Positions 22,864 to 64,000 of a DNA stretch of 64,000 nt are shown one piece after another (position 1 is the first letter of the stretch; each line of letters opens with the position of its first letter). Below the pieces are notes generated by a model. That model saw only the letters and a list, made by a program, of their open reading frames with translations. It was not told the DNA's origin and ran no database searches. A program made the translations under genes and the position numbers. Source of the stretch: Dickeya lacustris (GTDB lineage: Bacteria > Pseudomonadota > Gammaproteobacteria > Enterobacterales > Enterobacteriaceae); NCBI RefSeq assembly GCF_029635795.1, contig NZ_CP114280.1, positions 4,030,001 through 4,094,000 of the forward strand, read 5' to 3'.

Positions 22864-23153
22864 TCACAAACCCCGTCACCTATCCGTATGGCAAAAACGT
22901 TTACCGGTTTATCGCCAAAATGCGGGTGTGTAATCGTCTGCATTTCATAGCCGAGCCAGGGCAGGATCAGGCGGCGTGACATATCAGAACGGGCCGGATA
23001 GCCCCATGTAATCACCAGTTGTTCATAATCCCGACCAACCAGCCGACGCCGCCAGTAAGCATTGTCCAACCGGTATTCAAAGGGCTTCATCCCAGCCTTC
23101 ATTGCAGCGAAATATTCCCCCATCACCGCGAGTTGTAGAATGCTCACAGACAA
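22860..23153 (-). CDS. ASCH-domain-like protein
   Basis: 97 residues. GEYFAAMKAGMKPFEYRLDN followed by YWRRRLVGRDYEQLVITWGY is characteristic of the ASCH fold (RNA-binding, PUA-related), found in many phage early operons. Some ASCH proteins bind or process modified nucleosides, but its reaction is not known here. It overlaps the cytosine methyltransferase by ten bases upstream and A by four, so it belongs to the same operon. Confidence 0.75.
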   Translation of the reverse strand: MSVSILQLAVMGEYFAAMKAGMKPFEYRLDNAYWRRRLVGRDYEQLVITWGYPARSDMSRRLILPWLGYEMQTITHPHFGDKPVNVFAIRIGDGVCE

Positions 23154-24061
23154 CCCCCTATGGCCTCAACAACCCGGCACATGGCAACGGGAGGCACAGC
23201 ATTACCCGCCATATTGACGGTCAGGCGGTGACTTTCTGGCGTGATATACGATGGCGGAAAAGACATTGCGGCCATTACTTCCCGTTTTGTAATCATCCGC
23301 ATACGGTCACCATCCACTATGGCCCACCTGTCTCTGGTTGTGATTGTTCCGATGGGGCGGTTCAGACTGCGGCCTGTTTTTGTATTTCCGTAATAGCTGA
23401 AAATGAATCGCTCACCGAACTGGCGGCGACCACTTTCGATACGCTCTAACGTTGATATCGCACGACCCGGACGATTTATTGGTGACCATTTCCCGTCATC
23501 AAAATCAATTAATGTGGCGGCGGAAACATGACTGATGCGAGGCAGATCGAGTAATAGCGGGGAGCGGCTGAGGGTACATACAAGAAATAGGCGGATGCGA
23601 TTCTGAGGAACCCCTAGATCAGCGCAATCAACAATATGCGGCGATAACGCATAACCCAACGCCGCCATTGCCGCCGCCCATGCCGGATACAACGCCCAAT
23701 TCAGAAATTCAGGCACATTCTCAACAATCACGGCTGACGGCCTGTGATATTCCACGGCCGACACAACAGCCCAAGCGGTTGAGCGGCTCGCATCATGCTG
23801 TGGATTCCCGGCGGCTTTCCCTCGCGCACGGCTATGCCCCTGGCAGCATGGTGACGCCATCATAAGATCGTGCGGGGGAACATTACTCCAGTTGGCCTGA
23901 TGCAAGTCCTGACAAACGTGGATTGCATCAGGATGGTTTAAACGATGATAGTCAACCGCAGCGGGCCAGTGATTAGCGGCCCAGACAACTTGCGCACCGG
24001 CCATCCGTGCGCCGGTTGATGAACCGCCGAATCCGGCGAAGAGATCGATAGCCTTCATCAT
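23144..24061 (-). CDS. DNA (cytosine-5) methyltransferase
   Basis: 305 residues, a compact C5 methyltransferase. Motif I is AIDLFAGFGGSSTG, motif IV with the catalytic Cys is MASPCCQGHS, motif VI is VIVENVPEF and motif VIII is QNRIRLFLV. No restriction enzyme gene is near, so it is an orphan that probably protects phage DNA from host restriction. Its ATG overlaps the Dam stop (ATGA). The target sequence cannot be read from this. Confidence 0.92.
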   Translation of the reverse strand: MMKAIDLFAGFGGSSTGARMAGAQVVWAANHWPAAVDYHRLNHPDAIHVCQDLHQANWSNVPPHDLMMASPCCQGHSRARGKAAGNPQHDASRSTAWAVVSAVEYHRPSAVIVENVPEFLNWALYPAWAAAMAALGYALSPHIVDCADLGVPQNRIRLFLVCTLSRSPLLLDLPRISHVSAATLIDFDDGKWSPINRPGRAISTLERIESGRRQFGERFIFSYYGNTKTGRSLNRPIGTITTRDRWAIVDGDRMRMITKREVMAAMSFPPSYITPESHRLTVNMAGNAVPPVAMCRVVEAIGGCL

Positions 24062-24891
24062 GCCGTACCCCGTTCAGACACCGGCAGACGCTTGGCGATG
24101 ATTTCCCCGGCCTGTTTGCTTTCCCCAGCCGCCACACCGACGCTACGCGGGGCGGTGAAGCGGCAGATATCAAACTGGTGGTACAGGCTGTGAGCGTGGT
24201 GAGTGTCGCTGTTGGAGGCGATGACAGGTATCCCACGTTCGACCAGGCGTGATAACGCGCTGCACAGGTCATACTGATCGTTATGGGTGAAACCATCGGT
24301 GTGATAACTGGTGAAGCTGGCCGTTGGCGTTTGCGGGATGTACGGCGGATCGCAGTACACCACATCGCCGGGGTGGATTAGTTGCAATGTTTCACCAAAC
24401 GCCGCACAGATGAATTTTGCACGGCGGGCTTTTTCGGCAAATGCCCGAATCTCGGCCAGCGGGAAATAAGGCGATGCATAATGCCCGTAGGGGACGTTAA
24501 ATCCACCGGCGCGGTTATAGCGACAAACGCCCCGGTAGCCGTGCCGGTTCAGATAAAGAAACAGCGCCGCAGAGGTAGTGCGATTCTCTTTGCTGCGGTT
24601 AAATACCTGCCGGAAACGGTAATAACTTTCGGCTGTATTCGCCGTGCGAAACAGACCTTCTGCGGTATCAATAAACTCCTTCACATCCTCTTTGATGACC
24701 TGATACAGGTTAATCAGGTCAGGGTTGATATCCGCGATCAGGTATTCCGGGTAATCGGTATTCATCATGACCGAACACGACCCGGCGAACGGCTCAACCA
24801 AACGATCACCAGCCGGTAAATGCTCGCGCAGGATATCCATTATGCGGGCCTTGCTGCCGACCCATTTCAGCGGTGTGGCAATAATGCTCAT
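24058..24891 (-). CDS. dam: DNA adenine methylase (Dam family)
   Basis: 277 residues. D12-class N6-adenine methyltransferase: PLKWVGSKARI and VEPFAGSCSVMMN are the SAM-binding motifs and VVYCDPPYIPQT holds the DPPY catalytic motif. Dam enzymes methylate GATC; host Dam is elsewhere, so this phage copy would keep fast-replicating phage DNA fully methylated. It is four-base coupled both to the small gene upstream and to the cytosine methyltransferase downstream. Confidence 0.93.
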   Translation of the reverse strand: MSIIATPLKWVGSKARIMDILREHLPAGDRLVEPFAGSCSVMMNTDYPEYLIADINPDLINLYQVIKEDVKEFIDTAEGLFRTANTAESYYRFRQVFNRSKENRTTSAALFLYLNRHGYRGVCRYNRAGGFNVPYGHYASPYFPLAEIRAFAEKARRAKFICAAFGETLQLIHPGDVVYCDPPYIPQTPTASFTSYHTDGFTHNDQYDLCSALSRLVERGIPVIASNSDTHHAHSLYHQFDICRFTAPRSVGVAAGESKQAGEIIAKRLPVSERGTA

Positions 24892-25804: not shown

Positions 25805-26729
25805 GGCCGTGTCCCTTAACTTAACAACCGCTTCAAAAATAACCTGATCGCTCCCAGTTTTAGCATACTCAGGTAGTTTCTGGCGGTTTTTTCCGAGCGG
25901 GTGGCAATACGGCGATTTTCTTTGAGTATCGCAAAGCAACGCTCCACGACATTGCGTTTTTTTGTACAGGCGCGTGTCGAGGTGACGACGTCCGTCCCGA
26001 CTGGCCTTCTCATTCGATTTTAAACGGAATAACCGCTTTATATTCCTTTCATTTTCAAATGAATGCGAAGGTTTTTACCTGAATAACCCTTATCCGCCAG
26101 CACCGCTTTCGGACGTGATTTCAGGTGCCCGCCTTTTCGGATAATCCCGACCCGGTTGAGCAACGTTTCCGCGTATCGGCTTTCGTGGGCCTGTCCACCG
26201 CTCAGGCAAAAACTCAGCGGTAATCCTGTGCCATCTGTCGCCAGATGGATTTTGGTGCCAAAGCCGCCGCGAGAGCGACCCAGCCCATGGTCCTCGCATT
26301 CATCGGGATGTTTTTTTTCGCACCAGCGGCCGCTTTCAGGGCGCGAACGTTACTGCCATCCAGCGCGATAACATCCCAGTCAATCAGCGCTTTTTCATCC
26401 AGAATCTGGAGTAATTTATTGAAAATGCTGTTCATTATTCCGGCTTTAGACCACCGATTGAAGCGGTTGTAAATGGTTTTCCATTGACCATAACGCTCAG
26501 GTAAATCCCGCCACGGCGCGCCAGAGCAAAGCACCCAAAATATGCCATTCATGACATGTCTGTGCGCAAAGTAAGGACGCCCGCCTCGGGAAGAGCCTCT
26601 TTCAGGCGGCAGCATGGGAGAAATCAGCGCCCAAGCGTCATCGGGAAAATCATAACGAGCCAAATTAAAGCACTTCTTGTGATGAAATCATGTCCCTGAT
26701 TGTACAAAAAACAGTTACGGGACACACCC
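25805..26729 (-). mobile_element. IS5-family insertion sequence (degraded)
   Basis: About 925 bases. The ends form imperfect inverted repeats: left GGCCGTGTCCCTTAAC and right (reverse complement) GGGTGTGTCCCGTAAC, 13 of 16 identical. Both flanks carry TA (25803-25804 and 26730-26731), the short duplication expected for the IS427/IS1031 type of IS5 elements. The transposase reads on the minus strand in broken pieces. It has landed in the early operon of the prophage and split the fil-type gene. Confidence 0.88.
25816..26663 (-). pseudogene. IS5-family transposase, frameshifted
   Basis: N-terminal part 26663-26214 (MARYDFPDDAWALISPMLPP; GSGAPWRDLPERYGQW-like; first catalytic Asp in VIALDGSNVRA) changes frame at the T8 run 26311-26318. 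The middle is readable in another frame (LADKGYSGKNLRIHLK, second Asp), and the end (KKRNVVERCFAILKENRR, catalytic Glu) in a third. Besides the A-run shift, which in this IS group can be programmed, at least three single-base insertions near 25950-26040 break the frame. It is most likely dead. Confidence 0.88.
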
Positions 26730-27112: not shown

Positions 27113-27325
27113 TTATATTTCACTGCTGGCGATGGCATCGCGCAGCATGGCAACGAGATTCACCTCTACTTTCTCGTTTGCTTTTTCTTTTGGCCGGATA
27201 ATGATTTTTCCGCTTTTTACCATGCCCCGACACGTTTCAAAGGGGATACCCGTTAATTCTGAGTATTTCTTGAGAGAAACATACGGCGTCGGGACATTGA
27301 TATTGATGGTTAGTCCTTTACTCAT
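27113..27325 (-). CDS. cox: Cox-like excisionase/regulator
   Basis: 70 residues (P2 Cox: 91). VSLKKYSELTGIPFETCRGM reads as a winged-helix/HTH like that in phage Cox/Apl regulators. In P2, Cox represses the lysogenic promoter and helps excision. Here it is the second gene of the early operon, five bases after a ribbon-helix-helix-like gene that itself is divergent from the repressor. Assignment rests on position and HTH, so is moderate. Confidence 0.7.
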   Translation of the reverse strand: MSKGLTININVPTPYVSLKKYSELTGIPFETCRGMVKSGKIIIRPKEKANEKVEVNLVAMLRDAIASSEI

Positions 27326-27330
27326 ATCGC

Positions 27331-27591
27331 CTATCCTTCAGCGCTAAACGACTCCAGCCCCCGGAGAAAAACCAGTCTCGCCATGCTGGAGAGGGAGCGG
27401 CTTTCTTTTTCAGCCAACGCGGCCAGCCTGGCGCGTTCATCATCAGATAAACGCATAGGCGTTGGGTTTTTTGATGCGATTCCGCGAGGCAAGCGTGAAC
27501 GCTGTTCTGTGATTACGCACATTAATTCAGCATTACCATTAGGCGTTCCAGTATTGACCGGCGCGCCCTGATCATGATTTTCTTGTGTCAT
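27331..27591 (-). CDS. Ribbon-helix-helix-like early regulator
   Basis: 86 residues. The N-terminal half is polar and disordered-looking; the C-terminal half (PTPMRLSDDERARLAALAEK, then SRSLSSMARLVFLRGLESF) has the strand-helix-helix pattern of MetJ/Arc-type DNA-binding proteins. As first gene opposite the repressor it probably takes part in the lysis-lysogeny switch. It has no clear P2 counterpart. Confidence 0.65.
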   Translation of the reverse strand: MTQENHDQGAPVNTGTPNGNAELMCVITEQRSRLPRGIASKNPTPMRLSDDERARLAALAEKESRSLSSMARLVFLRGLESFSAEG

Positions 27592-27668
27592 AATGGTATG
27601 TTGTGATCCACTATTGTTCTATGTAAATCATTATGGGATCAATAGATCTCTTTTGTCAAGGTGTGGAA
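27592..27668. promoter_or_regulatory. Switch region between repressor and early operon
   Basis: Contains TGATCC (27604-27609) and its inverse GGATCA (27636-27641), centres about 32 bases apart, and the related CATAATGG (27589-27596) and CATTATGG (27629-27636). These look like operators for the repressor and/or the early regulators. AT-rich words such as TATTGT and TATGTAAAT may be promoter elements. The pattern is visible; binding is inferred. Confidence 0.55.
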
Positions 27669-28064
27669 GTGACCTTTAGATCTCAATGTGCCGAAAGATT
27701 GAAGTCCGAGCGAAAGCGATTGTCCTTAAATCAGGCCGATGTCGCTGAGTTGTGTGGAGTATCAAGAGAAACATGGGGCAAATACGAGAGAGGCTCCATG
27801 GTGCCCGGGGGAGATGTTTTATTCTCTTTTTCTATGGCAGGAGCGAATATTCAATTTGTTCTAACCGGTGAGGAGTCGGGCGGTTTTGCTCTTTCTCGAG
27901 ATGAAATTGAATTGGTCAAAAGCTTTAGAGCTGCCCCTTTGGCAGTAAAAGCTGCTGCACTTGGCGCATTGGCTGCGGGCAGTTCTGCATCAACAAGCTC
28001 GATAAACGTAACCGGTAGCGGCCAGCGTGTTGCTGGTAGGGATTATTACGAAGGTAAGAAATAA
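27669..28064 (+). CDS. Phage repressor (XRE HTH) with VAGRDYYE tail
   Basis: 131 residues if it starts at GTG 27669, which has AAGG seven bases upstream; an ATG at 27633 lies inside the presumed operator and adds 12 residues. The HTH (LSLNQADVAELCGVSRETWG) spans about residues 20-45. There is no LexA-type peptidase domain, so it is a short non-SOS-type repressor like P2 C (99 residues). The last residues, GSGQRVAGRDYYEGKK, are repeated near the N-terminus of the protein at 28304. It should keep the lysogen silent and heads the lysogeny strand. Confidence 0.82.
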   Translation: MTFRSQCAERLKSERKRLSLNQADVAELCGVSRETWGKYERGSMVPGGDVLFSFSMAGANIQFVLTGEESGGFALSRDEIELVKSFRAAPLAVKAAALGALAAGSSASTSSINVTGSGQRVAGRDYYEGKK

Positions 28065-28091
28065 ATTTCGATATAAGAAAAGGATATTTTT

Positions 28092-28277
28092 ATGAAAAAG
28101 AGTCACACAGCATTCCTGTCACTCGCCATTGCTTTAAGCATCCTGTCTTCATCGGTATACGCAAGAAATACACCATGCTCTAAGTCAAAGGGAGGTATTT
28201 CACATTGCACGCCCGATGGTCGGTTTGTTTGTAATGATGGATCAGTCAGCCAATCAAAAAAAATCTGTAGCAAGTGA
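28092..28277 (+). CDS. Small secreted cysteine-containing protein
   Basis: 61 residues. A clear signal peptide ([20 protein letters not shown] with cleavage likely after VYA) leaves a mature peptide of about 37 residues with four Cys ([36 protein letters not shown] in outline). Two disulfides in the periplasm are likely. Similar peptides are known from enterobacterial mobile elements without assigned function. A GGAT-type ribosome site precedes it. It is 27 bases after the repressor, so is probably expressed in the lysogen. Confidence 0.72.
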
Positions 28278-28303
28278 TATGACCGTGATAAGGGACATAA
28301 TCG

Positions 28304-28915
28304 ATGAATGCAGAAGCTCAAGGTGACAGTAATCGGGTAGCCGGGCGTGACTTTTACGAAAGCAGCATCACAGTCGATCAGCTCAATATTGCCATTCCGG
28401 CGGCCAATGAAGAAAAACGCCCACTGGTTCCCGCGCAGCGTAAGCAGTTAAACCAACTGGTAAAAGAAATTACTGACGGCGGCTATGAAGAGGGGTTTTC
28501 AGTGTGGCAGCGCGTCCATGCTGAGATTGGCGTCAAAAGCATTGAGGATATGACGGTCAACCAGTATCAAACGGCGGTCAGTTATCTTCAGGCATTGCGC
28601 GACAGATACCGGGAAAAGGATGCCAGTAATGCACTGGTTCATCTGCTGTTGAAGAATACCCAGCAGGTAGATCAGCGGCAGCAATTAATTCATTACTGCC
28701 ATATTCATTTCGGTACTGGACGATTAACTGAGCTGACCCGATCGCAGCTCCAGCAGGCGCTTTCATGGTTGGATGACCGCCAGTGTTCGACCGTTCCTGA
28801 ACAAACTGCGCCTAATGCTCGCCAGAGCTGGCAAGAGGTGCTTAAAGCAGAACCATTGGTTTTCAGTGTAGTGTTTACTGCTGGAATAATTATGGGCGCT
28901 ATTTTTTTTCGTTAG
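28304..28915 (+). CDS. C-terminally anchored membrane protein with VAGRDFYE motif
   Basis: 203 residues. The start, GDSNRVAGRDFYE, repeats the tail motif of the repressor two genes upstream. The middle contains GFSVWQRVHAEIGVKSIEDM, resembling C-terminal domains of phage antirepressors (from memory, low certainty). The last ~20 residues (PLVFSVVFTAGIIMGAIFF) form one membrane helix, so the protein is tail-anchored with its bulk in the cytoplasm. Placement in the lysogeny transcript suggests exclusion, sensing or defence. Confidence 0.75.
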   Translation: MNAEAQGDSNRVAGRDFYESSITVDQLNIAIPAANEEKRPLVPAQRKQLNQLVKEITDGGYEEGFSVWQRVHAEIGVKSIEDMTVNQYQTAVSYLQALRDRYREKDASNALVHLLLKNTQQVDQRQQLIHYCHIHFGTGRLTELTRSQLQQALSWLDDRQCSTVPEQTAPNARQSWQEVLKAEPLVFSVVFTAGIIMGAIFFR

Positions 28916-28994
28916 ACGTATCGATAAGTAACATAAAAAATATCTCAACTCTAAAGATAGATAAATCAAATAGCTATTTATAGAAGGGCTTTTT
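28916..28994. other. AT-rich gap before BRCT cargo genes
   Basis: 79 bases, very AT-rich, ending in GAAGGGC-type ribosome site before ATG 28995. The sharp fall in GC marks the start of the cargo that differs from the rest of the prophage. A separate promoter could lie here. Confidence 0.4.
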
Positions 28995-30173
28995 ATGACA
29001 TTTGAAGAATGGATTTCAAAAAACGAGAAAGAAATATTCTTTACTTATACCAATGCTAATAATGAGGTATCTAATAATTACGTTGTCGATGCAGTATATA
29101 AAGATAATTATCTTCAAGGGTATTGCATAAACAAGAAAGGTTTTAGAACCTTCAAACTTGAAAGAATACTGGATGTCTACTCTTCAAATGAAGAAATGGT
29201 TTCTGCCGCTAGTCCTTTAACTATTGTAGATCTCAAGATTGAAAATCGACGTGTGAAAGATACTCCCCGTGGTTTGGAGATTTGTTTTACTGGTTTTGAT
29301 AAAGACATAAAGGATGAGCTAGAATCACTCGCTGAAAAAAAAGGACTGTTAGTCAGAAAAGGTATTACAGCAAAATTATATTTCCTGTGTTGTGGCCCTA
29401 ATGCCGGATGGAAGAAAATAAAACAGGCAAATGAAAAAAACTGTTTCATCCTTTCCAAAGATCAATTTTTTTCATTTGTTGATACAGGTGAGATTCCAAT
29501 AGAACCGACAGAAGTTTATGACTCTGACGAAAAGGATATACATGAAAAAATAGAAATATTGCACAATGAAATAACTTCAACATTTCGTACTATCAGAGAG
29601 CCGCGCAGGAGCACAGCCCTTATTGCACGTTTTGTTGATGGTTATGCTATTGGTTGGCGCTTTGCAATAAGAGAATCTCACCGTAATGCACTAGATATAA
29701 AATTAACTAAATTTGTTTTTAATAAGCATCAATATGAGGATTGGACGCAAGGTAGCTCTTTTTCTTTCGGTAGAGGTGATGTCTTTTATAGTGATAAATT
29801 GGGTTATAGTGAGTGGAGTGAGTTTTTAAAAATACCTGACGCGGTTGTACTACAAGTCAAATATGAGTGTTTTTCTGGTTATGATCCAGTTGCAACTATT
29901 GATGGTTTTTTCTCAGGGGACTTCATTCCAGATAACCAGCTAACGCCTAAAAAACTAACCAATCTACCAATTATGATAAGAAGTGAAAGTTATGACCCTG
30001 GGAAAATAACACTGGATATATTTAAGCCTAGTCTTGATAGAAGTAACCTTGACTTGTTTGATACGATAAAAATAACTCAGGACGAACTTATCTCATTACT
30101 TCAGTCAGGCTACTACTGGAAGAAGGATGAAGGACAAAAACCAGTGCGTATAAATTTATTTGGTGATAATTAG
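28995..30173 (+). CDS. WYL-like/BRCT-domain cargo protein
   Basis: 392 residues, markedly AT-rich. About residues 13-62 (FFTYTNANNEVSNNYVVDAV; KGFRTFKLERI) look like a minimal WYL-type SH3-like ligand domain. About residues 90-170 form a BRCT domain (GLEICFTGFDKDIKDELESL; GWKKIKQANEKNCFILSKDQ). The C-terminal ~220 residues are unknown; IAIGWRFAIRESHRNALDIK-like text and many aromatics suggest an alpha/beta domain. No HTH or nuclease motif is visible. Lies next to a second BRCT protein. Possible role: detecting DNA ends or nicks in phage exclusion. Confidence 0.7.
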   Translation: MTFEEWISKNEKEIFFTYTNANNEVSNNYVVDAVYKDNYLQGYCINKKGFRTFKLERILDVYSSNEEMVSAASPLTIVDLKIENRRVKDTPRGLEICFTGFDKDIKDELESLAEKKGLLVRKGITAKLYFLCCGPNAGWKKIKQANEKNCFILSKDQFFSFVDTGEIPIEPTEVYDSDEKDIHEKIEILHNEITSTFRTIREPRRSTALIARFVDGYAIGWRFAIRESHRNALDIKLTKFVFNKHQYEDWTQGSSFSFGRGDVFYSDKLGYSEWSEFLKIPDAVVLQVKYECFSGYDPVATIDGFFSGDFIPDNQLTPKKLTNLPIMIRSESYDPGKITLDIFKPSLDRSNLDLFDTIKITQDELISLLQSGYYWKKDEGQKPVRINLFGDN

Positions 30174-30265
30174 AAATATTTGTCAATGTTGTTTTTAGTA
30201 AATGATTTCCCGGTTGGAAATGTAGTTATAAGTTGACTTTGAAATTATCACCAAAGGAAAATATC
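30174..30265. other. Gap between the two BRCT genes
   Basis: 92 bases, AT-rich. An open frame continues upstream of ATG 30266 to 30233, but AAAGGA lies at the right distance before 30266, which is chosen as the start. No terminator is seen, so the two genes are probably co-transcribed. Confidence 0.5.
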
Positions 30266-31150
30266 ATGGCAGATGAAAAACTAGATTTTTTTAACTATAA
30301 AAGGAATAAAGATAAATTACTTATTAACCTTATCAATATCATTGAGGGCATAAACTGTGATGGTCATATAGATGAGAAAGAAGTTTTGTTTCTTGATACA
30401 TGGATAAAAGATGCTGATTTAATCAGTAAAAACTATTGTGTGCGGATGATTTCAAATAGACTTTCCGATATATTGTCTGATGGCGTTATTGAGCCGTATG
30501 AATTGAATTATTTGAAAGCTGATTTAATCAAGGTGCAAAAAGAGCTGTCTGATTTACCTGAGCTTGATTTGTACTCTGATGAAGCGGACAAGCATTTATT
30601 GGAAGGCCTATGTAAAGGAATGATGGCGAATCATGAACTTAATGATTCAGAAATAAGATACTTAAATTGGTGGCTATCATCTAATGCTTCGCTCAAAGTT
30701 AATTACCCTGGAAAAGAGTTATACGCATTGGTTAACCGGATTCTTGCCGATGGGATCATTACATCAGAAGAACGTGATGAATTGAAAAAAGCGTTAATCG
30801 CTTTTACCGGAAGTGATGTCTATTCCGGTGTAGTGGATGGGCTGGCAACTCGCTTACCAGTGGATGATATAGAGAGCTTAGTTCTTTCCAATGCAACAGT
30901 TTGTCTGACAGGTGAATTCCTTTATGGAAAAAGATCAGTGTGTAAAAAACTGATTGAAGACGCAGGCGGGAAGGTGATTGATAATATAACAGCAAAACTT
31001 GATTTTCTTATTATTGGTACATTGAGTTGTAAACATTGGAGATATCAGGCTCACGGTCGGAAAATCGAAAAAGCAATAGACTACCGGGATAATCGTGGCA
31101 TTCCACTGAAAATAATCAGTGAAGAACAATGGCAGAGCTTTACTGGATAA
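30266..31150 (+). CDS. TerB-like/BRCT-domain cargo protein
   Basis: 294 residues. The N-terminal ~200 residues hold TerB-type helical repeats with acidic metal-site-like motifs: INCDGHIDEKEVLF, LSDGVIEPYELNYL and ILADGIITSEERDEL. The C-terminal ~80 residues are a DNA-ligase-type BRCT domain (TVCLTGEFLYGKRSVCKKLI; LDFLIIGTLSC; IPLKIISEEQWQSF). It ends six bases before the integrase gene. TerB domains occur in stress and phage-defence gene sets; with the neighbouring BRCT gene it may form a two-protein sensor, but this is inference. Confidence 0.75.
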   Translation: MADEKLDFFNYKRNKDKLLINLINIIEGINCDGHIDEKEVLFLDTWIKDADLISKNYCVRMISNRLSDILSDGVIEPYELNYLKADLIKVQKELSDLPELDLYSDEADKHLLEGLCKGMMANHELNDSEIRYLNWWLSSNASLKVNYPGKELYALVNRILADGIITSEERDELKKALIAFTGSDVYSGVVDGLATRLPVDDIESLVLSNATVCLTGEFLYGKRSVCKKLIEDAGGKVIDNITAKLDFLIIGTLSCKHWRYQAHGRKIEKAIDYRDNRGIPLKIISEEQWQSFTG

Positions 31151-31156
31151 TATTAC

Positions 31157-32164
31157 ATGGCTGTAAGCAAACTTCCATCCGGCAAATGGCTTTGCCAATG
31201 CTTCCCCTATGGGCGTGATGGTCAGCGCGTTCGTAAACAATTTGCTACCAGGGGTGAGGCTCTAGCGTATGAGCGCCGCCTGATGGCGGAGAAAAAAGGG
31301 ATATCGACCGAAACCAACAGTACAACGCTGCAAGACCTGATCCAGCGCTGGTATGACATGCACGGCCAGACGCTGGAGTCAGGTGAAGACCGCTACGCTA
31401 AACTGATGGCAATCTGTGTTCGGCTGGGTAATCCCTTTGCGGTAGACGTTGATAAAAATATGTTCGCTGTTTACCGCGAACGCCGGTTAAAAGGTGAATG
31501 GAACCCAAAAGGGAAGACGGCCATCAAAGAGGCCACAGTTAACCGCGAATATTCCTACCTGCGGGCGGTGTTCTCTGAGCTGAAGCGCATGGGGGAGTGG
31601 GAAAAAGAAAACCCACTGGACGGCATACGCCAGTTTAAGGAAGGCGATCAGGAACTGGCTTTCCTGTACCCGGATGAAATTAAGCGCCTGCTTGCTGCCT
31701 GCGATGAATCAGAGAATAAAGATCTCGGTATCATCGTTCGCTTGTGCCTGGCGACAGGGGCGAGGTGGGGTGAGGCCCAGACCCTGAAACAATCGCAAAT
31801 CCTTCCCGGCAGGATCACATTCGTCAAAACCAAAGGGAAGAAAAACCGAACCATTCCTATTTCTGAAAGAATGCACGCCTTGTTGCCCAAGCGGCGCGGC
31901 CAACTCTTCAAACCAGCGTATGAGGCATTTAAGCACGCCTTAAAGAAAGCGCACATTGAATTACCAGAAGGGCAGTTGACCCACGTTCTCAGACACAGCT
32001 TTGCCAGCCACTTCATGATGCGTGGCGGCAATATTCTGGTGTTGCAGCAGATACTTGGTCATAGCTCTATCACTATGACCATGCGGTATGCACATTTCGC
32101 GCCGGATCATCTGGATGCGGCTGTGACCCTGAACCCGTTTGATTCGTTAACTACAGATGAATAA
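31157..32164 (+). CDS. int: P2-type tyrosine integrase
   Basis: 335 residues (P2 Int: 337). It recombines phage and bacterial attachment sites. An arm-binding N-terminus (AVSKLPSGKWLCQCFPYGRDG) and SAM-like core-binding domain precede the catalytic domain with Arg in ATGARWGEAQTL, the HxxR box THVLRHSFASHF and the nucleophile Tyr in TMRYAHFAPD. It is transcribed towards the attachment site 127 bases away and is last in the repressor strand, as in P2, where C and int share a transcript. Confidence 0.96.
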   Translation: MAVSKLPSGKWLCQCFPYGRDGQRVRKQFATRGEALAYERRLMAEKKGISTETNSTTLQDLIQRWYDMHGQTLESGEDRYAKLMAICVRLGNPFAVDVDKNMFAVYRERRLKGEWNPKGKTAIKEATVNREYSYLRAVFSELKRMGEWEKENPLDGIRQFKEGDQELAFLYPDEIKRLLAACDESENKDLGIIVRLCLATGARWGEAQTLKQSQILPGRITFVKTKGKKNRTIPISERMHALLPKRRGQLFKPAYEAFKHALKKAHIELPEGQLTHVLRHSFASHFMMRGGNILVLQQILGHSSITMTMRYAHFAPDHLDAAVTLNPFDSLTTDE

Positions 32165-32173
32165 TCATGGGGC

Positions 32174-32198
32174 GCTGCCACGTTAAATCGATGGCAGC
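32174..32198 (+). terminator. Hairpin after integrase
   Basis: GCTGCCA (32174-32180) pairs with TGGCAGC (32192-32198) with an 11-base loop, followed by AGATTT. It can end the lysogeny transcript before the attachment site. Confidence 0.5.
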
Positions 32199-32290
32199 AG
32201 ATTTCCGCATTAGCTCGCATTAACCTGAATTGAATACTGCTAATGTATTGAATTAACGTAACTCTATGATATAAAAGGCGGGCACTAACT

Positions 32291-32346
32291 TTTTAAAATC
32301 CCTCGGCGTACGCGCTGTGCGGGTTCAAGTCCCGCTCTGGGCACCA
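32291..32346 (+). tRNA. 3' part of tRNA-Leu(UAA): prophage attachment site
   Basis: The sequence from TTTTAAAATCCCTCGGCG to the CCA end corresponds to the anticodon-loop-to-3'-end part of enterobacterial tRNA-Leu with anticodon UAA (leuZ type): 3' anticodon stem ATCCC, variable arm, T loop GGTTCAAGTCC, acceptor TCTGGGC and ACCA. The 5' half is missing to the left, where phage DNA begins. This is the att duplication left by integration into the tRNA 3' end; the complete tRNA gene should lie at the other end of the prophage, outside the window. Confidence 0.9.
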
Positions 32347-32390
32347 TGCAATAAATGACTGATAAAAATAGAAATAAATAAAAACTCTTC

Positions 32391-32413
32391 ACCGCCTCAA
32401 GGCGGTTTTTTTA
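32391..32413 (+). terminator. Terminator after tRNA-Leu fragment
   Basis: ACCGCC TCAA GGCGGT followed by a T run: a compact intrinsic terminator, probably that of the original tRNA transcript. It now lies on the chromosome side of the attachment site. Confidence 0.85.
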
Positions 32414-58067: not shown

Positions 58068-59048
58068 TCAACTTGCCAGTCGGTGCAACATCGTGCTGGC
58101 GGTTGTTGGTGCTGGCAAGGTATCGCTAGTAGTGGCATGGCCGAGCGTTTGTTGGATCTGCTGGCCGATTTCATCAAGTAACTGATAGCGACGCTGGTAT
58201 TGTGCGCGTTTGCGGCTTGGGAGTTCCTCAGGTGTTTTTCGAGGGATATGGGTTGGGATTTGATACAGCCCACATTCGCGTTTATTGGCGCTGACGGACA
58301 ACCAGAATTCGCTGTAACTGGAAAAGCGAACGTTATGCTTGCGATGGCAATAGCGTAGATTTTGATAAACGTGGTTTTCATCGCCGACCGCTAACACGGT
58401 GTTGATACCATTCAGGTTAGCAAGCGTCAGCAAACTTTCTAGTAATAACCGTTTGGGAAATAAACCAAAGCAGGCTTTTGACGCCTCTTTAATTAATTCC
58501 CGCGTTTGGTCGTTGCCCTTTCCTTGCAGGCCGCCGATGATAATTGTGCGAATATTTTGATAGTTCAGTACGGAAAAAGTGAGTGAGGCTAACACCATAT
58601 CATTGAAGCGAATACGTAATGTGGCTTCACCTTCTTTATCGTAACGAGAGGTGCTGCAAATAATCGAGAAATTCTCATTATTCTTACCACTAAAACGCGC
58701 AAGACAATATTCATCCTGACTGAGTAGCGCCTGTTTAAGAAATGGGTTAGCCAATGAATCGACAAAGTGGTAATGAGCGCAAATGGCATCAGCCCGGCTA
58801 TGCGCGCGCAAACTGGCATAGAGATAAGGGCGATGAATCTTGCTCGGTAGTACCGGCTGAACCAGAACGGCTCTGCGCATCGATGGGCTATTGATCAGAT
58901 GGCGCAAATACGTCAGGGTCACTGATGGCATGAACAACGATCGTAAAAAAAATTTGGCTTTAATATCAGTTTTATACCAGATTTTCTTGCCAAGGAAATT
59001 CCCGTTTAATAAGTGATAAAAAACTGATAGTGCAGATGTGTTTTCCAT
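58068..59048 (-). CDS. VirK/YbjX family protein (DUF535)
   Basis: 326 residues. YASLRAHSRADAICAHYHFV, IIIGGLQGKGNDQTRELI and PKRLLLESLLTLANLNGINT are typical of the VirK/YbjX family, linked in other enterobacteria to virulence and resistance to host peptides. The reaction is unknown. Convergent to the diguanylate cyclase gene, 15 bases apart. Confidence 0.9.
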   Translation of the reverse strand: MENTSALSVFYHLLNGNFLGKKIWYKTDIKAKFFLRSLFMPSVTLTYLRHLINSPSMRRAVLVQPVLPSKIHRPYLYASLRAHSRADAICAHYHFVDSLANPFLKQALLSQDEYCLARFSGKNNENFSIICSTSRYDKEGEATLRIRFNDMVLASLTFSVLNYQNIRTIIIGGLQGKGNDQTRELIKEASKACFGLFPKRLLLESLLTLANLNGINTVLAVGDENHVYQNLRYCHRKHNVRFSSYSEFWLSVSANKRECGLYQIPTHIPRKTPEELPSRKRAQYQRRYQLLDEIGQQIQQTLGHATTSDTLPAPTTASTMLHRLAS

Positions 59049-59481
59049 TTTTCTCTTACCATATATCTTTAGCCATAAAATAAGAAATATATTTAATATA
59101 TTTCCTCGTTCGGATAAGTCTCAATTCTCTCAGAGGGAAGCGATGTTTTCGCTATGTTCTCACCCCGGCTGTTTGTATCAATTGCCGCGATTATAGAGAC
59201 GGGAAATAAAAGTAAAACCGCAACGGGTTTTTTGTTGAGTATTGATTTAGTGAAAATATAAAAGAGTAAAAATAAAAACTTTGTTTGGTGTTTATTTAAA
59301 CTTCGCGGTGGGATAATAAGTATTATGGTGTGTAAGTCTGTTACTGATGGCGCTAACTAGGTTATCAGCACCTGCAAGTTACATTGGATGAGAACAACAG
59401 GCGTTATTAGTGATGGAAACGTTAGTGGTGAAAGAGTAGCGGGGCCGGCTCTACTCCACAGAGAGAGCCGGAGCGTGAGGG
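59049..59481. other. AT-rich intergenic region virK-dps
   Basis: 433 bases. The left third is highly AT-rich (ATATTTAATATATTT at about 59089), consistent with a regulated and H-NS-type promoter for the virK gene. The right end before dps holds CTCTCTGTGGAGTAG-type inverted sequence (GGCTCTACTCCACAG, AGAGAGCC), a possible dps terminator. No gene seen. Confidence 0.55.
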
Positions 59482-59967
59482 TTATTTCAGATAAGCGTTA
59501 AACATCCAAATCTGTTTTTCTTGTTCCTTGATGTAGTCCGTCATCAGGGACGCCGTACCTTCATCGCTGGCTTCTGCAGCAAGTGGCAGGAGTTCTCGCT
59601 GTTGTTGCAGTAATATGGCGTAACCTGCCAGCAACCCTTCCAGTGTTTTTTTACCCTCAGTGGCATTTACATCTTCCTGAATGTCAGCGACCTTCAGGTA
59701 GTCGCTATAGGCATGCAGTGGCTGCCCGCCAAGCGCCAGAATGCGTTCTGCCAGTTCGTCAATCTTCAACAGTAACTCGTTGTAGATTTCCTCAAACTTC
59801 GCGTGCAATTCGAAAAATGCCGCGCCGGAAATATTCCAGTGATACCCGCGTACGTTCATATACAGAATCTGGTAGTTGGCCAACAATGTATTCAATTTGG
59901 CGGCAATCTTCTCAGATTGCTGTACATCCAGGCCAATCGGGCTTTTTTTCTTTTTACTGCCTGCCAT
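59482..59967 (-). CDS. dps: DNA-protecting ferritin Dps
   Basis: 161 residues from ATG 59967 with AGGAGAT upstream. Lys-rich N-terminus (MAGSKKKK), then the four-helix core with the ferroxidase residues in MNVRGYHWNISGAAFFELHAKFEEIYNELLLKIDELAER (His, His, Asp/Glu pattern). It oxidises and stores iron and compacts DNA in stationary phase and oxidative stress. Slightly shorter than E. coli Dps (167). Confidence 0.93.
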   Translation of the reverse strand: MAGSKKKKSPIGLDVQQSEKIAAKLNTLLANYQILYMNVRGYHWNISGAAFFELHAKFEEIYNELLLKIDELAERILALGGQPLHAYSDYLKVADIQEDVNATEGKKTLEGLLAGYAILLQQQRELLPLAAEASDEGTASLMTDYIKEQEKQIWMFNAYLK

Positions 59968-60583
59968 ATCGCGATCTCCTTTGTCTATGGGTGACACATC
60001 GATGCTGATGAGCCGTCCTCACATTACCTTGTTAAAGCGCGCGGATGTGCTGCCGGTAAACGACTCGCCGGTAAAGGGTGCTGACCCGCGTGACGGCACT
60101 TTCATCATAGGCTAATTTGCGCTCTTTTACTGCCATAGTGGATTTTTCTTATTGTTTGAAAATGATAGGAGACTGTGCAGGACATTACGCTTCGCAATAT
60201 GTTGTTTAGGATGATGCCCAATACCTAAATAGCAGCAATAGCCGCGTGAAATCATGCCCCCATTTTTAGCGAACCTCTGTGCCATAGCAGAAAATGCATA
60301 TTTTTTGTTAGTGTCGTTGGCATCGTGCTCACCATGCGTTGCTCTGGTATGTCTACCTTGCGTCATAAAAGACAGGTGTAGCAGTATCACCGTGCAGCTG
60401 TTTCGTCTAAGTAAAATCGAGAGAGCATTGGGTTGGCGTCGTTATTGTATGTCAATGTTTGGGCTGCGGTTGACACAAAAAACAGTTACGGTGCGTGCGC
60501 TAAAGCGATATCATCGGAAGAGGTGGCGGTGGTAGTGCGTTACCTTGGCTACGGGTAAACAGGCTGATTCCATCATTTTACGC
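59968..60583. other. Intergenic region dps-fliD
   Basis: 616 bases. An open frame at 60127-60390 on the minus strand shows no coding character. The dps side has its promoter; the fliD side leads to the sigma-28 promoter at 60584-60610. No RNA gene recognised. Confidence 0.55.
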
Positions 60584-60610
60584 TAAACTTTTTACTCGTC
60601 GTGCCGATAA
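60584..60610 (+). promoter_or_regulatory. Sigma-28 (FliA) flagellar promoter of fliDST
   Basis: TAAACTTT (60584-60591), an 11-base spacer and GCCGATAA (60603-60610): a close match to the FliA consensus TAAAGTTT-N11-GCCGATAA. It lies 36 bases before fliD, so the cap gene and chaperones are late-class flagellar genes. Confidence 0.95.
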
Positions 60611-60645
60611 GTGAGTTATCTTGCAAATTAGATGAAGGGTTCACC

Positions 60646-62091
60646 ATGGCTACTCTCGTTAGTAATACCACGTCGCTCTTGGGGTTAAGCTTTGCAAATA
60701 CGCTAAACGGCAGTAGCCTCAACCTGACGACGTTATTAACCAATTTACAGACATCAGAACAAGCTCGTTTAACGCCTTATACCAACAAGCAGAATACGTT
60801 GACTGCTCAGTCGCGCGGTCTTAGCGCGGTAGAGGCTGCCTTAAATAGCCTTAACACAGCAACAACGACGCTGAAAAATTTTAAAACTATTTCGTCCACT
60901 ACAGTCAATAGCACCAATACCTCTTTCGGTGTAACTACAGACAGTTCCGCTGTTGCTGGTGTCTATAGCTTATCGGTTAGTAAATTGGCTCAGGCCCAGG
61001 CCCAAATATCCGGTGGGTTTAGTAGTGCGTCAACGGCTTTAGTCACTGGAGGTACATCCAGTACGTCGAGTGTTATTACTATCAATCAAGCCAGCCAGTC
61101 AAAACCACTCACCGTCACTTTGACTGATGATAAAACGTCGTTGAATGATATTCGTGATGCTATCAATAATGCTGGTGGCAGCGTTAGTGCAACTGTTGTT
61201 AATAACGGCTCACAAAGTTACCTGATGTTGACAGCGAAAGATACTGGTACGAAGTCTGCTATGAGTGTCTCTGTTTCTGGTGCGTTAGCAACGCCCTTGG
61301 GCTCATTCACTGAAAACGTTGCCGCACAGGACGCCGCATTCAAACTGAATGGTATGGATGTAACCAGCCAGAGCAACACCGTATCGACAGCAATATCTGG
61401 CGTTACATTGACTCTAAAATCCACATCATCAAGCGCCACCCCTGAAACTTTGACGATTGGTTCTGATACGTCCAGCACTAAGAAAGCGATACAAGACTGG
61501 GTGTCTGCTTATAACAATGTCTTAGATGTTATTAAAACGCAGACCAACTATTCAGCTCCATCGTCGACTGAAAAAGCAAGCGGTTCACAGTCATCAAGTA
61601 ACGGTGCATTGATGGGTAATAGTACCGTTAGTCAGATACAGGCAAGATTGCAGGGGCAATTAACTAATGTACAAACAGGCAATGACTCCCTGAGAATTTT
61701 GGCCGATTTGGGAATTACTCAAGATCCATTGAATAATGGGAAATTGAAAGTAGATTCAGCCAAGCTTGATAGCGCACTAAAAACGAATTCCAGCGCTGTT
61801 GGTGCATTTTTTGCCGGTGATGGTTCTACTACGGGATTTGCTACACAGGCGTCAAAATATCTTGATAGTGTATTAAATACGACGAATGGTGTGTTGAAAT
61901 CTGTCAAAGATGGTCTGGCATCCAGCCAAACATCGGTAGCTAATCAGATTCAGAAAATTAATGATAGCATTGATAACAATATGGCACGTTATCAAAAACA
62001 ATTTGCCCAGCTGTCTTCGCTGATGTCAAAACTTAGTTCGCAGAATAACTACTTGACCCAACAATTCAAAACAAATAGCAGTTCAAGTTAA
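60646..62091 (+). CDS. fliD: Flagellar cap protein FliD
   Basis: 481 residues. FliD caps the growing filament and guides flagellin folding. Ser/Thr/Ala-rich without Cys, with helical ends: N-terminal GLSFANTLNG and LTPYTNKQNTLTAQSRGLSA, and the C-terminal helix MARYQKQFAQLSSLMSKLSS. Start at ATG 60646 (GAAGGG upstream); the frame opens 15 codons earlier. First gene of fliDST. Confidence 0.95.
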   Translation: MATLVSNTTSLLGLSFANTLNGSSLNLTTLLTNLQTSEQARLTPYTNKQNTLTAQSRGLSAVEAALNSLNTATTTLKNFKTISSTTVNSTNTSFGVTTDSSAVAGVYSLSVSKLAQAQAQISGGFSSASTALVTGGTSSTSSVITINQASQSKPLTVTLTDDKTSLNDIRDAINNAGGSVSATVVNNGSQSYLMLTAKDTGTKSAMSVSVSGALATPLGSFTENVAAQDAAFKLNGMDVTSQSNTVSTAISGVTLTLKSTSSSATPETLTIGSDTSSTKKAIQDWVSAYNNVLDVIKTQTNYSAPSSTEKASGSQSSSNGALMGNSTVSQIQARLQGQLTNVQTGNDSLRILADLGITQDPLNNGKLKVDSAKLDSALKTNSSAVGAFFAGDGSTTGFATQASKYLDSVLNTTNGVLKSVKDGLASSQTSVANQIQKINDSIDNNMARYQKQFAQLSSLMSKLSSQNNYLTQQFKTNSSSS

Positions 62092-62178
62092 TCTGAATAT
62101 AGCAGGTTGAGTGTTTAAATATTAAGCGCTCTTCCTGTTTATTTTTCCATTGCTAGTCGAGTTGATTCATGTATGGTC

Positions 62179-62589
62179 ATGTATAGAAAAAATGCGTCTC
62201 AGGCTTACTCTCAGATTGGTTTAGAGAGTGCTGTAATGAGTGCGAGCCCTCATCAATTAATTGTTATGTTGTTTGATGGCGCTAAAAGTGCGCTGGTAAG
62301 AGCTCGCATACTCATAGAGCAGGGAGATATTATTAATAAAGGAAACTCCCTGTCTAAAGCTATTGATATTATTAGCAATGGACTGCAGTTAGGTTTGGAT
62401 ATGCAGAACGGAGGGGAGTTGGCAGAGAATCTTTCTGACCTTTATGATTACATGATTCGTCGGCTCTTGTATGCAAACATTCATAATGATATCAATGCAA
62501 TTGCAGAAGTTGAAGTTTTGCTTGATAATATTGCGGATGCGTGGAAAAAAATTGGTCCAGGCTATCAATCAACAACGGAAATGCGCTAA
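62179..62589 (+). CDS. fliS: Flagellin export chaperone FliS
   Basis: 136 residues (E. coli 136). Helical chaperone that keeps flagellin unfolded before export. MYRKNASQAYSQIGLESAVM, SPHQLIVMLFDGA and the C-terminal NIADAWKKIGPGY are conserved. ATG 62179 matches the E. coli start; an ATG two codons earlier is possible. Overlaps fliT by one base (TAATG). Confidence 0.96.
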   Translation: MYRKNASQAYSQIGLESAVMSASPHQLIVMLFDGAKSALVRARILIEQGDIINKGNSLSKAIDIISNGLQLGLDMQNGGELAENLSDLYDYMIRRLLYANIHNDINAIAEVEVLLDNIADAWKKIGPGYQSTTEMR

Positions 62590-62951
62590 TGGAAAATGTC
62601 TCTCCATTATTAACTGAGTATCAGGGGCTGCTTAAACTCATTCAGAGTATTAAGCTCATGGCGTTAAATGGGGCATGGGATGACGTTGTTGAGCAGGAGA
62701 TTATCTATATTCAGGCAATAGAGAGAATCAGTCAGATATCTGCACCTGTCAATATGCCAAGTGTTATTCAGTTACAATTTAGGCAACTTCTTCAGGAGAT
62801 TCTTGATACAGAAGCTCAGGTAAAAGAGTTGCTACAAAAAAGAATGGAAGAGTTGGCAATGCTGATTCAGCAAGGGCAGAATCAAAAAACTATCAATAAT
62901 GCCTATGCTGAATTTTCGAATGATTTACTGGTTGGTAAATCAACACCCTAA
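62589..62951 (+). CDS. fliT: FliD chaperone and FlhDC regulator FliT
   Basis: 120 residues (E. coli 121). Helical; binds FliD before export and, when free, FlhDC to reduce class II flagellar genes. MENVSPLLTEYQGLLKLIQS and QEILDTEAQVKELLQKRMEE. The ATG at 62589 shares a base with the fliS stop; upstream codons belong to fliS. Confidence 0.92.
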   Translation: MENVSPLLTEYQGLLKLIQSIKLMALNGAWDDVVEQEIIYIQAIERISQISAPVNMPSVIQLQFRQLLQEILDTEAQVKELLQKRMEELAMLIQQGQNQKTINNAYAEFSNDLLVGKSTP

Positions 62952-62960
62952 ACTATCATC

Positions 62961-62995
62961 GAGCCCGCCCGATATCAGGCGATTCGGGCCTTTCC
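62961..62995 (+). terminator. Possible terminator after fliT
   Basis: GCCCG...CGGGC around 62963-62989 with extra pairing CCGAT/ATTCGG-like, followed by CTTTCC. A weak hairpin after fliT. Confidence 0.5.
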
Positions 62996-63257
62996 TGGTT
63001 TTCCTCCACGGTATTGCATTTCTAATTTTTTATATATGAGCGGAAATTCTTTCCTCTGGTGAGCCTATACAGCTGAGAGGAAAGCGCATATTGTAAATTT
63101 TCTTCAACTACCCACTTTTAAATATTTTTCACTGAAGTCTCGCCTGTTAACTCCGAATGCGTAAATAAGAAACTGAATACTTCGATTATCGGTTGATTGT
63201 TCAATGATTTATTTATATATAATGGGTTTATTTTTAAGAGTGTAAAAGGAACGTTTT

Positions 63258-64000
63258 GTGATAATGTCAAATGTGCAGTCGTCAGATATTCCTGCAAAAA
63301 AAAACGTGATCAGCCCTCCAATTGTGCACACTGCTCCATATTATTTGCAGGCTATGGCTTATCTTTACGGCATAAAGTCTGCTGCACCTGAAACAGCCCG
63401 CATTTTAGAGATTGGGACACAAGATGGTGGTAATCTTTTTCCCTTTGCAATCGCAAATCCGAAATCCCATTCACTAGGTATTGATATTGATACAGATAAA
63501 ATTGAGAAAGGTAATGCACTGATAAGAAAGTTAAATATCAATAATATTGAGTTATTTTCATTAGATCTTGACTCTCTTCTATCTAGTGAACCAGGAGATT
63601 TTGATTATATTATTGTTCATGGTGTTTTTAGCCTCTTGGGTGGAGAGGTTCGTGATAATTTGTTGCAGTTCTGTAAAAAACATCTAACACCTGATGGGTT
63701 GATTTGCTATGGATATAATACGTTTCCCGGGTGGAAAACAGGTGAGGTATTACGTGATGCTATTCAATTACATAGTAGTTTAGCTAGTGATGAAAAAACG
63801 GCACAAGAAAGTGCACGGGCTATGCTAACCTATTTATCACTAGGAATGTCATCAGGTAATACGCAGTATGCATCTTTAAATGAATTAATTGGTCAGGCTG
63901 AAAAATTATCAGACACTGAGTTAGCCTTATATTATATGCAAGGTTTTAATCAACCTTGTTATTTTGTTGATTTCTATGCTCAAGCTAATAATGCAGGTTT
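63258..64000 (+). CDS. SAM-dependent methyltransferase, partial (cut by window end)
   Basis: At least 247 residues, open to the window end. GTG 63258 has AAAGGA seven bases upstream; ATG 63264 is the alternative. Motif I is ARILEIGTQDGGNLFPFAIA, then LGIDIDTDKIEKGNALIRKL (motif II) and DFDYIIVHGVFSLL (motif IV), followed by CYGYNTFPGWKTGEVLRDAI, which marks class I methyltransferases with the MethyTransf_Reg domain. Located after fliDST, AT-rich; probably part of a flagellin-modification island. Confidence 0.85.
   Translation, partial: MIMSNVQSSDIPAKKNVISPPIVHTAPYYLQAMAYLYGIKSAAPETARILEIGTQDGGNLFPFAIANPKSHSLGIDIDTDKIEKGNALIRKLNINNIELFSLDLDSLLSSEPGDFDYIIVHGVFSLLGGEVRDNLLQFCKKHLTPDGLICYGYNTFPGWKTGEVLRDAIQLHSSLASDEKTAQESARAMLTYLSLGMSSGNTQYASLNELIGQAEKLSDTELALYYMQGFNQPCYFVDFYAQANNAG

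Follow-up and report, generated by a model that had tools for sequence, protein, structure and literature searches.

Matching tags on the repressor and a neighbouring membrane protein in the two-layer lysogeny operon of a P2-like prophage of Dickeya lacustris

The window analysed here, a 64,000-nucleotide stretch of the Dickeya lacustris genome (NCBI RefSeq assembly GCF_029635795.1, contig NZ_CP114280.1, positions 4,030,001 to 4,094,000 of the forward strand), carries a P2-like prophage that sits in the 3' end of a tRNA-Leu(taa) gene, and the region under study is the lysogeny operon of this prophage. The operon has two layers: a core made up of the repressor gene and a gene for a C-terminally anchored membrane protein, and a cargo in front of the integrase gene (int) that includes two genes for BRCT proteins, one with a WYL domain (hereafter WYL-BRCT) and one with TerB-like repeats (TerB-BRCT). 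The C-terminus of the repressor and the N-terminus of the membrane protein carry matching tags, which are short and rich in Gly, Asn and Val. Across related prophages this match was found to be locus-specific and upheld for many tag sequences, with the partner of the repressor usually containing a hydrophobic helix. The initial annotation of the window had placed four genes on the plus strand between the repressor gene and int, encoding a secreted four-Cys peptide and the three proteins named above, and had proposed that they form a single exclusion or defence system. All four open reading frames (ORFs) lie where it had put them, but the genes occur apart in other prophages and the membrane protein is the tag-matched partner of the repressor, so the proposal of a single system did not hold.

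Results

Matched tags of the repressor and the membrane protein

The repressor ends in TGSGQRVAGRDYYEGKK and the membrane protein begins with MNAEAQGDSNRVAGRDFYES; the repressor tail QRVAGRDY recurs at the N-terminus of the membrane protein as NRVAGRDF, and the pair has a local score of 51, compared to a median of 26.5 for the same tail against other loci. Loci for comparison were fetched using a membrane-gene query (A3) and two repressor helix-turn-helix (HTH) queries (A5 and A6) on viral contigs (best 80 each), in addition to earlier cargo queries. From 263 loci, 260 were usable (three with less than 1 kb downstream were dropped), and 52 non-redundant repressors remained after removal of loci without a downstream ORF and of near-duplicates by tail identity. 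A local score of at least 33 was counted as a match, and a 19-residue window with a hydropathy of at least 1.6 as a hydrophobic helix.

The mean score of the 52 repressors was 38.2 with the cognate partner and 23.2 with non-cognate ones (z 13.6, 0/5000 permutations). The match persisted when the loci fetched by A6 were left out (n=42, z 11.5), and exclusion of AGRDY-type tails gave 33.7 versus 22.5 (n=42, z 11.4, 0/5000 permutations). An earlier set of 45 loci, assembled after A3 and A5 and before A6, gave 1712 versus 1067 (standard deviation 53, maximum 1289 over 2000 permutations). The controls were all null, with z at 0.5 for ORFs 1–2 kb downstream (n=46), −0.2 for divergent ORFs upstream (n=49) and −1.5 for the repressor HTH (n=52). 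Scanning the loci for the motif gave 51 distinct combinations with both tags. An example with another tail is L246, where the repressor carries KQVFHGNVGQVVEGSITN and the product of the next gene carries MSQDFHGDVGQVAAGDINN at its N-terminus, and the same holds for L247, L282, L290 and L367. The threshold score was reached in 28/52 loci, and the partner contains a hydrophobic helix in 23 of these 28. The query sets favour matched loci (12 of the 13 rows of A5 come from AGRDY-tagged loci, and the 13 rows of A6 were picked by eye, most with a visible match), and 28/52 is therefore no prevalence. The strongest tag match was seen in L290 (4472–4891; score 75, SHHSSGxGAVHIG), where the partner has no hydrophobic helix and carries the tag about 23 residues in, and the partners are thus not all membrane proteins. 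Ten partner proteins searched against Pfam gave nothing above cut-off.

Members of the membrane-domain family A3 carry differing tags, each following that of its own repressor (14 members above 50 bits, 53.8 versus 35.5, z 5.1; before filtering n=19, z 6.4, including five weak matches below 50 bits), and one tag type can be found on different partner domains, as in L301 and the window. That the AGRDY tag is exclusive to A3-family neighbours was rejected by counts over 72 distinct repressor tails, in which tag and A3 occurred together in 19 loci, A3 without the AGRDY tag in ten, the tag without A3 in two and neither in 41. Another matched tag was seen in most of the ten A3 loci lacking the AGRDY tag, with L320 having a variant, and in L254 and L301, which have the tag without A3, the next genes are similarly tagged.

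Where residues of the two tags were identical, the codon was shared in 113 of 242 cases (47%; 24 matched pairs), compared to roughly 36% expected, this expectation being averaged roughly over residues that are typical of tags and not over the exact ones. The conservation is therefore mainly at the protein level, and duplication at the DNA level was rejected by the codon comparison as the main cause of the tag match. Among 5426 complete E. coli genomes, 499 contain a stretch consisting of repressor gene, membrane gene and DUF2511 gene, covered to at least 80%, and laboratory E. coli would therefore be suitable for testing the pairing. Identity was at least 99% in 477 of the 516 matching records, and an integrase gene follows in the one annotation read.

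The membrane protein and its relatives

The membrane protein has a hydrophobic C-terminal window at residue 184 with a Kyte-Doolittle value of 2.25, in agreement with the anchor assigned to it in the initial annotation. Its best named relative is from Dickeya zeae (90%), and the listed homologues are covered by the precomputed family PF27202. The middle of the protein is similar to a segment of phage antirepressors (phrog_245 1.1e-7, phrog_2127 8.1e-7) and, remotely, to the middle of the flagella biosynthesis regulator Flk (NF007987, 1.3e-14), after which several of the homologues are named. The N-terminus and the prophage context are different, however, and orthology to Flk was rejected, as the 54.2 bits obtained compare to an equivalog cut-off of 353. 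A further match was to the N-terminal half of phrog_6521 (9.3e-11; 'membrane protein, moron'), a family also matched by the tag-matched partners in L247 (5.8e-17), L255 (1.7e-14), L277 (6.5e-72) and L385 (3.2e-28), whereas the protein in the window belongs to phrog_5825; phrog_6521 gives no mechanism. A profile search of the PDB with the membrane protein returned nothing below E 0.2.

A variable slot between the membrane gene and int

The membrane gene and a downstream int were both present in 82 of 87 loci, many of which are near-duplicates, and the slot between them, 333–2652 bp in size, is a moron hotspot. This agrees with the earlier statement that P2-type prophages carry defence genes in variable sites. 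Mechanical picking gave 20 ORF clusters, three of them on the minus strand and probably spurious. The slot contains Abi_alpha in L172 (PF14337 1.9e-50; PADLOC PDC-S47 5e-60) and an AAA_15 ATPase in L177 (PADLOC NsnB 2.3e-51, AriA 4.9e-26), and secreted-looking proteins or other WYL/BRCT proteins in other relatives. When ten slot proteins were scanned with PADLOC, two had a strong match and the rest had weak WYL, BRCT or coiled-coil matches or none. A BRCT-WYL protein with reversed domain order and a different C-terminal part was seen in the slot of L193, L196, L197, L201, L224 and L228 (four of the six sequences read).

K139-like P2-related phages have a defence hotspot between cI and the integrase gene, according to the part of Rousset et al. 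2022 (PMC9122126) that was available. Defence or exclusion is a plausible prior for the BRCT genes from the company they keep, because the slot is a hotspot with this published cI–int parallel and K139 Orf2, a relative of TerB-BRCT, is encoded there; the two uncharacterised BRCT families are, by the same analogy, plausible and concrete defence candidates in a hotspot of known type. The cargo genes are probably expressed together with int in the lysogen. Such expression, part of the initial annotation, is plausible in view of the K139 record, where a lysogenic promoter and start site are annotated 5' of cI-orf2-glo-int, and of the window operon, where a scan found no terminator-like site on the plus strand in 27650–32391. 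The genes for the repressor, peptide, membrane protein, WYL-BRCT and TerB-BRCT are all co-oriented with successive gaps of 27, 26, 79 and 92 bp, and a promoter scan was uninformative (11 found, 11.3 expected).

Domains and relatives of WYL-BRCT and TerB-BRCT

The domain assignments first made for WYL-BRCT were recovered with Pfam, both domains being narrowly above the curated cut-offs (BRCT 22.9 bits, cut-off 21.3; WYL 22.7 bits, cut-off 21.8). The protein is covered over residues 14–378 of 392 by phrog_36782 (6.5e-76) and also matches phrog_2561. In TerB-BRCT the BRCT domain was likewise above the Pfam cut-off (22.4 bits, cut-off 21.3), and phrog_3989 covers residues 18–302 of 305 (8.8e-99; numbering from the TTG start). 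The TerB-like part, on the other hand, had no Pfam TerB match at E≤1 (nearest lead DUF533, 0.032) and rests on D-x6-E elements, with D32/E39 and D162/E169 invariant (62/62) and D72 and E79 present in 57/62 and 59/62, respectively. Place and strand of this last cargo gene were right in the initial annotation, but its start is likely ATG 30266 rather than TTG 30233, since two relatives from the genus have a stop between these positions and since the listed homologues are as a rule about 291–299 aa long.

Homologues at E≤0.001 numbered 232 for TerB-BRCT and 20 for WYL-BRCT; most low-scoring BRCT matches were discarded as having the open-frame length of a DNA ligase and covering the ligase BRCT only. 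The best named relative of TerB-BRCT is from Pectobacterium (79%), and K139 orf2 shares 34.5% identity over 94% of the length. Both genes are strongly AT-rich, as noted previously, with a GC content of 34.6% (WYL-BRCT) and 36.2% (TerB-BRCT), compared to 47.0% for the repressor gene, 49.0% for the membrane gene and 60.7% for positions 5–14 kb of the window. Against four related viral contigs, dN/dS was 0.06–0.27 for the membrane, WYL-BRCT and TerB-BRCT genes (12 comparisons).

The nearest relatives of solved structure were yeast Rad4 (1e-5), followed by RFC1 (3.8e-4) and ligases, for TerB-BRCT, and LigA (5.4e-4) and RFC1 (4.7e-3) for WYL-BRCT. In the BRCT domain of TerB-BRCT, T215 (of T-G), R223 (at +8) and K266 (K of GRKIEKA) are invariant (62/62). 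WYL-BRCT has T99 (of T-G) and K141 in 20/20 sequences and no Arg at +8, while position 106 is Lys or Arg in 19/20. We take the phosphate-binding triad of RFC1 to comprise T-G, the Arg eight positions further on and the GxK[IL]xKA lysine; K266 is not paired with this lysine in the printed RFC1 alignment, and the pairing is our own reading. The RFC1 BRCT favours 5'-phosphate DNA ends, according to the accessible part of the report (PMC9293009), and binding of DNA ends by the two BRCT proteins is plausible and compatible with their BRCT type. Fusions of WYL with BRCT and TerB domains have been mentioned before (PMC4012209), and literature searches combining WYL, BRCT and prophage or BRCT, anti-phage and prophage turned up nothing relevant.

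Separability of the cargo genes

WYL-BRCT and TerB-BRCT are independently mobile cargo, i.e. swappable extras, and do not form one system with the peptide and the membrane protein, since the genes occur separately and the closest relatives lack the peptide. Both BRCT proteins are encoded in three of nine genomes of the genus, including that of the window, and are adjacent there (L001–L003); the membrane, WYL-BRCT and TerB-BRCT genes also remain together in four near-related viral contigs (L013–L016). Otherwise, the two BRCT genes are mostly found apart. Among viral loci with TerB-BRCT (best 80 of 183; some contigs are short, and absence is not always certain), WYL-BRCT is present in 4/80 and lacking in 76/80, and an integrase relative lies at most 1.5 kb 3' of TerB-BRCT in 47/80, with none within 1.5 kb in 33/80. 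WYL-BRCT without TerB-BRCT was found in Vibrio phage PV94 (L006, a short form), in the P2-like prophages L008 and L009 of E. coli, in Yersinia proxima (L011), in Serratia rubidaea (L012) and in viral contig L017. Short forms of both BRCT proteins are encoded, in order before int, in the distant genome G273 (L111/L144).

In genome G009 (L103/L142) the C-terminal domain of WYL-BRCT stands alone in a frame of its own, behind that of TerB-BRCT, an arrangement that suggests modular exchange around the BRCT domain. According to the annotation of the E. coli locus L010 (5720–6610), the TerB-BRCT gene is convergent with a repressor gene, with an 18-base overlap, in the left arm of a lambda-type prophage and distant from int; we take near-identical viral loci to resemble this arrangement.

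The four-Cys peptide

The peptide has a hydrophobic N-terminus followed by four Cys, by reading of the sequence, and secretion is predicted, in line with its first description. It matched the NCBIfam family PRK10040 (4.1e-21), under the cut-off of the family. The peptide is not encoded in the closest relatives (L013–L016 and L241); six other loci (L033, L035, L036, L039–L041) have it 3' of the TerB-BRCT gene, and in L276 it lies near a different repressor.

Coordinates and neighbouring features

The features of the operon and its borders are collected in Table 1. On the minus strand, the early region includes two adjoining ORFs resembling DNA methyltransferases (23144–24891), one of the cytosine type and one of the Dam type as judged by sequence, and a single methyltransferase is annotated in the early region of both K139 and PV94. 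Transposase pieces, presumably IS5-like, are spread over several frames amid the prophage early genes (25816–26663, minus strand). Beyond the prophage, the GC content falls to 35–46% at 59000–64000, possibly another island.

Table 1 Features of the lysogeny operon and the prophage borders. Coordinates refer to the window unless stated otherwise.
Feature	Coordinates	Strand	Evidence
attL, 55-bp identical repeat	genome C1:4027276, outside the window		3' end of tRNA-Leu(taa)
Cox-like excisionase/repressor	27113..27325	-	phrog_575 4.8e-27
Arc-like repressor, divergent to the lysogeny operon	27331..27591	-	phrog_3431 4.9e-21
Lysogeny repressor, N-terminal HTH and C-terminal tag tail	27633..28064	+	HTH_31 6.6e-8, HTH_3 2e-6
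Repressor C-terminal tag, residues 126-143, ends TGSGQRVAGRDYYEGKK	28008..28061	+	motif scan, cognate/non-cognate test
Predicted secreted four-Cys peptide, 61 aa, optional separate moron	28092..28277	+	phrog_6000 5.8e-23
C-terminally anchored membrane protein, 203 aa, proposed repressor partner	28304..28915	+	phrog_5825 5.2e-81
Membrane-protein N-terminal tag, residues 7-19, GDSNRVAGRDFYE, resembles the repressor tail	28322..28360	+	
Hydrophobic C-terminal anchor of the membrane protein	28853..28909	+	top Kyte-Doolittle window, residue 184
WYL (residues 10-61), BRCT (residues 93-159) and conserved C-terminal domain (about residues 180-392), predicted	28995..30173	+	
TerB-like helical repeats (residues about 10-205) and BRCT (residues about 206-290), K139 Orf2 relative	30266..31150	+	
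Tyrosine integrase, final gene of the operon	31157..32164	+	Int_N 9.3e-33, Phage_integrase 5.5e-25
attR	32292-32346	+	55 bp identical to attL / 3' end of tRNA-Leu(taa)

Discussion

The best explanation overall, to which we give an even chance, is a two-layer operon in which a tag-paired core of repressor and membrane protein is joined by hotspot cargo. Homotypic binding between the repressor and the membrane protein through their tags is rather probable from the sequences, and would link an inner-membrane protein to the repressor on the DNA. Such a coupling would most likely serve as a sensor-effector unit resembling RexAB, where a changed state or assembly of the repressor would nucleate the membrane protein and thereby alter the membrane, the outcome being altruistic death or the exclusion of superinfecting phages. 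A Rex-like response of this kind is put forward tentatively, by analogy, and an equally tentative alternative within the same scheme is that the membrane protein tunes the availability of the repressor. More speculative still is the broader idea that, commonly in P2-type prophages, the DNA-bound repressor tail might template, in an amyloid-like manner, the membrane-anchored effector encoded by the next gene, which would make the repressor both immunity switch and receptor for an exclusion or cell-death response. Diversification of the tags would keep the pairs of co-resident or invading phages from cross-talk. In the cargo, the BRCT domains, being kin to those of ligases and RFC1, may each recognise the DNA of incoming phages at its ends or nicks, with the WYL or TerB parts possibly acting as regulators.

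Several observations weigh against this explanation. The pair of the window ranks only fifth of 45 in the earlier set and fourth of 52 in the later one, because AGRDY-type partners of other loci score alike. Among the 52 loci, two have a score of 30 and 22 a lower one. The cognate partner outscores those of all other loci for only 14/52 repressors and is within the top three for 23/52, partly because many loci have a common tag type, and only 9/52 lie above the 99th percentile of non-cognate scores. Five of the 28 matched partners do not reach the helix threshold, and three of these come close to it (1.47–1.58 versus 1.6). A class-wide genome sample (z 3.5, 3/5000 permutations; upstream control z 0.7) has matches in 3/29, of which the window is one, and the partners in the other two, L401 and L406, are without a hydrophobic helix. 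The codon identity of 47% exceeds the rough expectation, and an old duplication may contribute. Among 50,697 phage records, a relative of the membrane protein was found in one phage (two records) only, where it is broken; four other tag partners had no match among isolated phages. Neither WYL-BRCT nor TerB-BRCT matches a validated defence family, the matches to PADLOC PDC-S48 covering only the C-terminal part of the profile (330–406 and 274–384 of 411, respectively).

Regarding the core, the tag pair could be regulatory only, the membrane protein being an anchor or antirepressor-like decoy that holds or frees the repressor by co-assembly of the tags and tunes induction with no role in exclusion. 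We consider this possible but clearly short of probable: the resemblance of the membrane-protein middle to phage antirepressors and Flk argues for it, as does the repressor, for which a Pfam scan found no domain beyond the HTH and hence none for oligomerisation, but matched tags are also present on partners with other middles, such as those of L255 (phrog_6521) and L301 (a weak lead to a zinc ribbon, under the cut-off). Alternatively, the match could be a by-product without a protein role, arising from duplication of the repressor end into the start of the membrane gene or from shared operator DNA. The raised codon identity argues for such an origin, yet the tags are of many types, amino acids are kept more than codons, and A3-domain proteins switch tag along with the repressor, which together make this reading improbable.

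For the cargo, the two BRCT proteins might serve the DNA of the phage itself in end protection, repair or as an integration accessory. An integrase relative close to TerB-BRCT in more than half of the 80 viral loci and the ligase and clamp-loader BRCTs among the nearest solved relatives are consistent with this, but no integrase relative lies within 1.5 kb in the other 33, the gene in E. coli L010 stands beside a lambda-type repressor gene away from int, and unrelated genes occupy the slot in many sister phages; we regard such a role as doubtful. Least likely is the original idea that the four genes constitute one lysogen-expressed exclusion or defence system. The genes are adjacent and co-oriented, with short gaps and no plus-strand terminator-like site between them, and the three longer ones stay together in L013–L016; these relatives lack the peptide, however, each gene is found without the others in related prophages, and the membrane protein pairs with the repressor. 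Its already small probability was lowered further once the closest relatives proved to lack the peptide, and we now consider it very unlikely.

Comparison with known systems

Lambda RexA and RexB are a cytoplasmic and a membrane protein produced from the repressor operon in the lysogen. The prophage operon likewise encodes a cytoplasmic and a membrane protein, whereas the link is here carried by the repressor itself, and the likeness is one of organisation. If the proposed explanation is correct, a shared, diversifying tag would connect lysogenic immunity and exclusion directly through proteins, in a phage group that is common.

The slot is at the same site as the cI–int hotspot of K139-like phages, in related phages and with variable content including defence genes, and K139 has a TerB-BRCT relative there. 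It differs in being preceded, on the side of the repressor, by a membrane gene whose product is matched to the repressor, and the two cargo genes of the window match no validated defence family. K139 Orf2 (phrog_3989) resembles TerB-BRCT in its TerB-like repeats and BRCT domain over the aligned length and is encoded in a lysogenic operon together with cI, glo and int, although the identity is limited and no full relative of WYL-BRCT or of the membrane protein was found in the K139 stretch. The function of Orf2 is not discussed in the portions of the K139 papers that were available.

The tags themselves can be compared to BASS pairs, in which, as far as described in the accessible parts of the reports (PMC7889193, PMC8086366), the C-terminus of a Bell effector and the N-terminus of an NLR carry a short motif common to the products of adjacent genes. 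An open-access literature search found no paper joining amyloid signaling, prophage and repressor, and a search on the tag letters gave nothing relevant among the papers listed. The pairs described here differ from BASS in that a phage repressor is joined by partners which are mostly membrane proteins with a C-terminal anchor, with no NLR: neither NLR nor Bell was found above the Pfam cut-off in ten partners (no Bell-specific model was used), and the other partner is an HTH repressor. The tag motifs are about 15–20 aa, compared to 20–40 aa for the BASS sets in the parts of those reports consulted. As in BASS, again going by these parts, a motif at the C-terminus of one protein recurs at the N-terminus of its neighbour, the motifs form many families, and one partner is thought to act on the membrane. 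If the proposed explanation holds, short-motif signalling between the products of neighbouring genes, described for NLR immune pairs, would extend to viruses by way of phage repressors.

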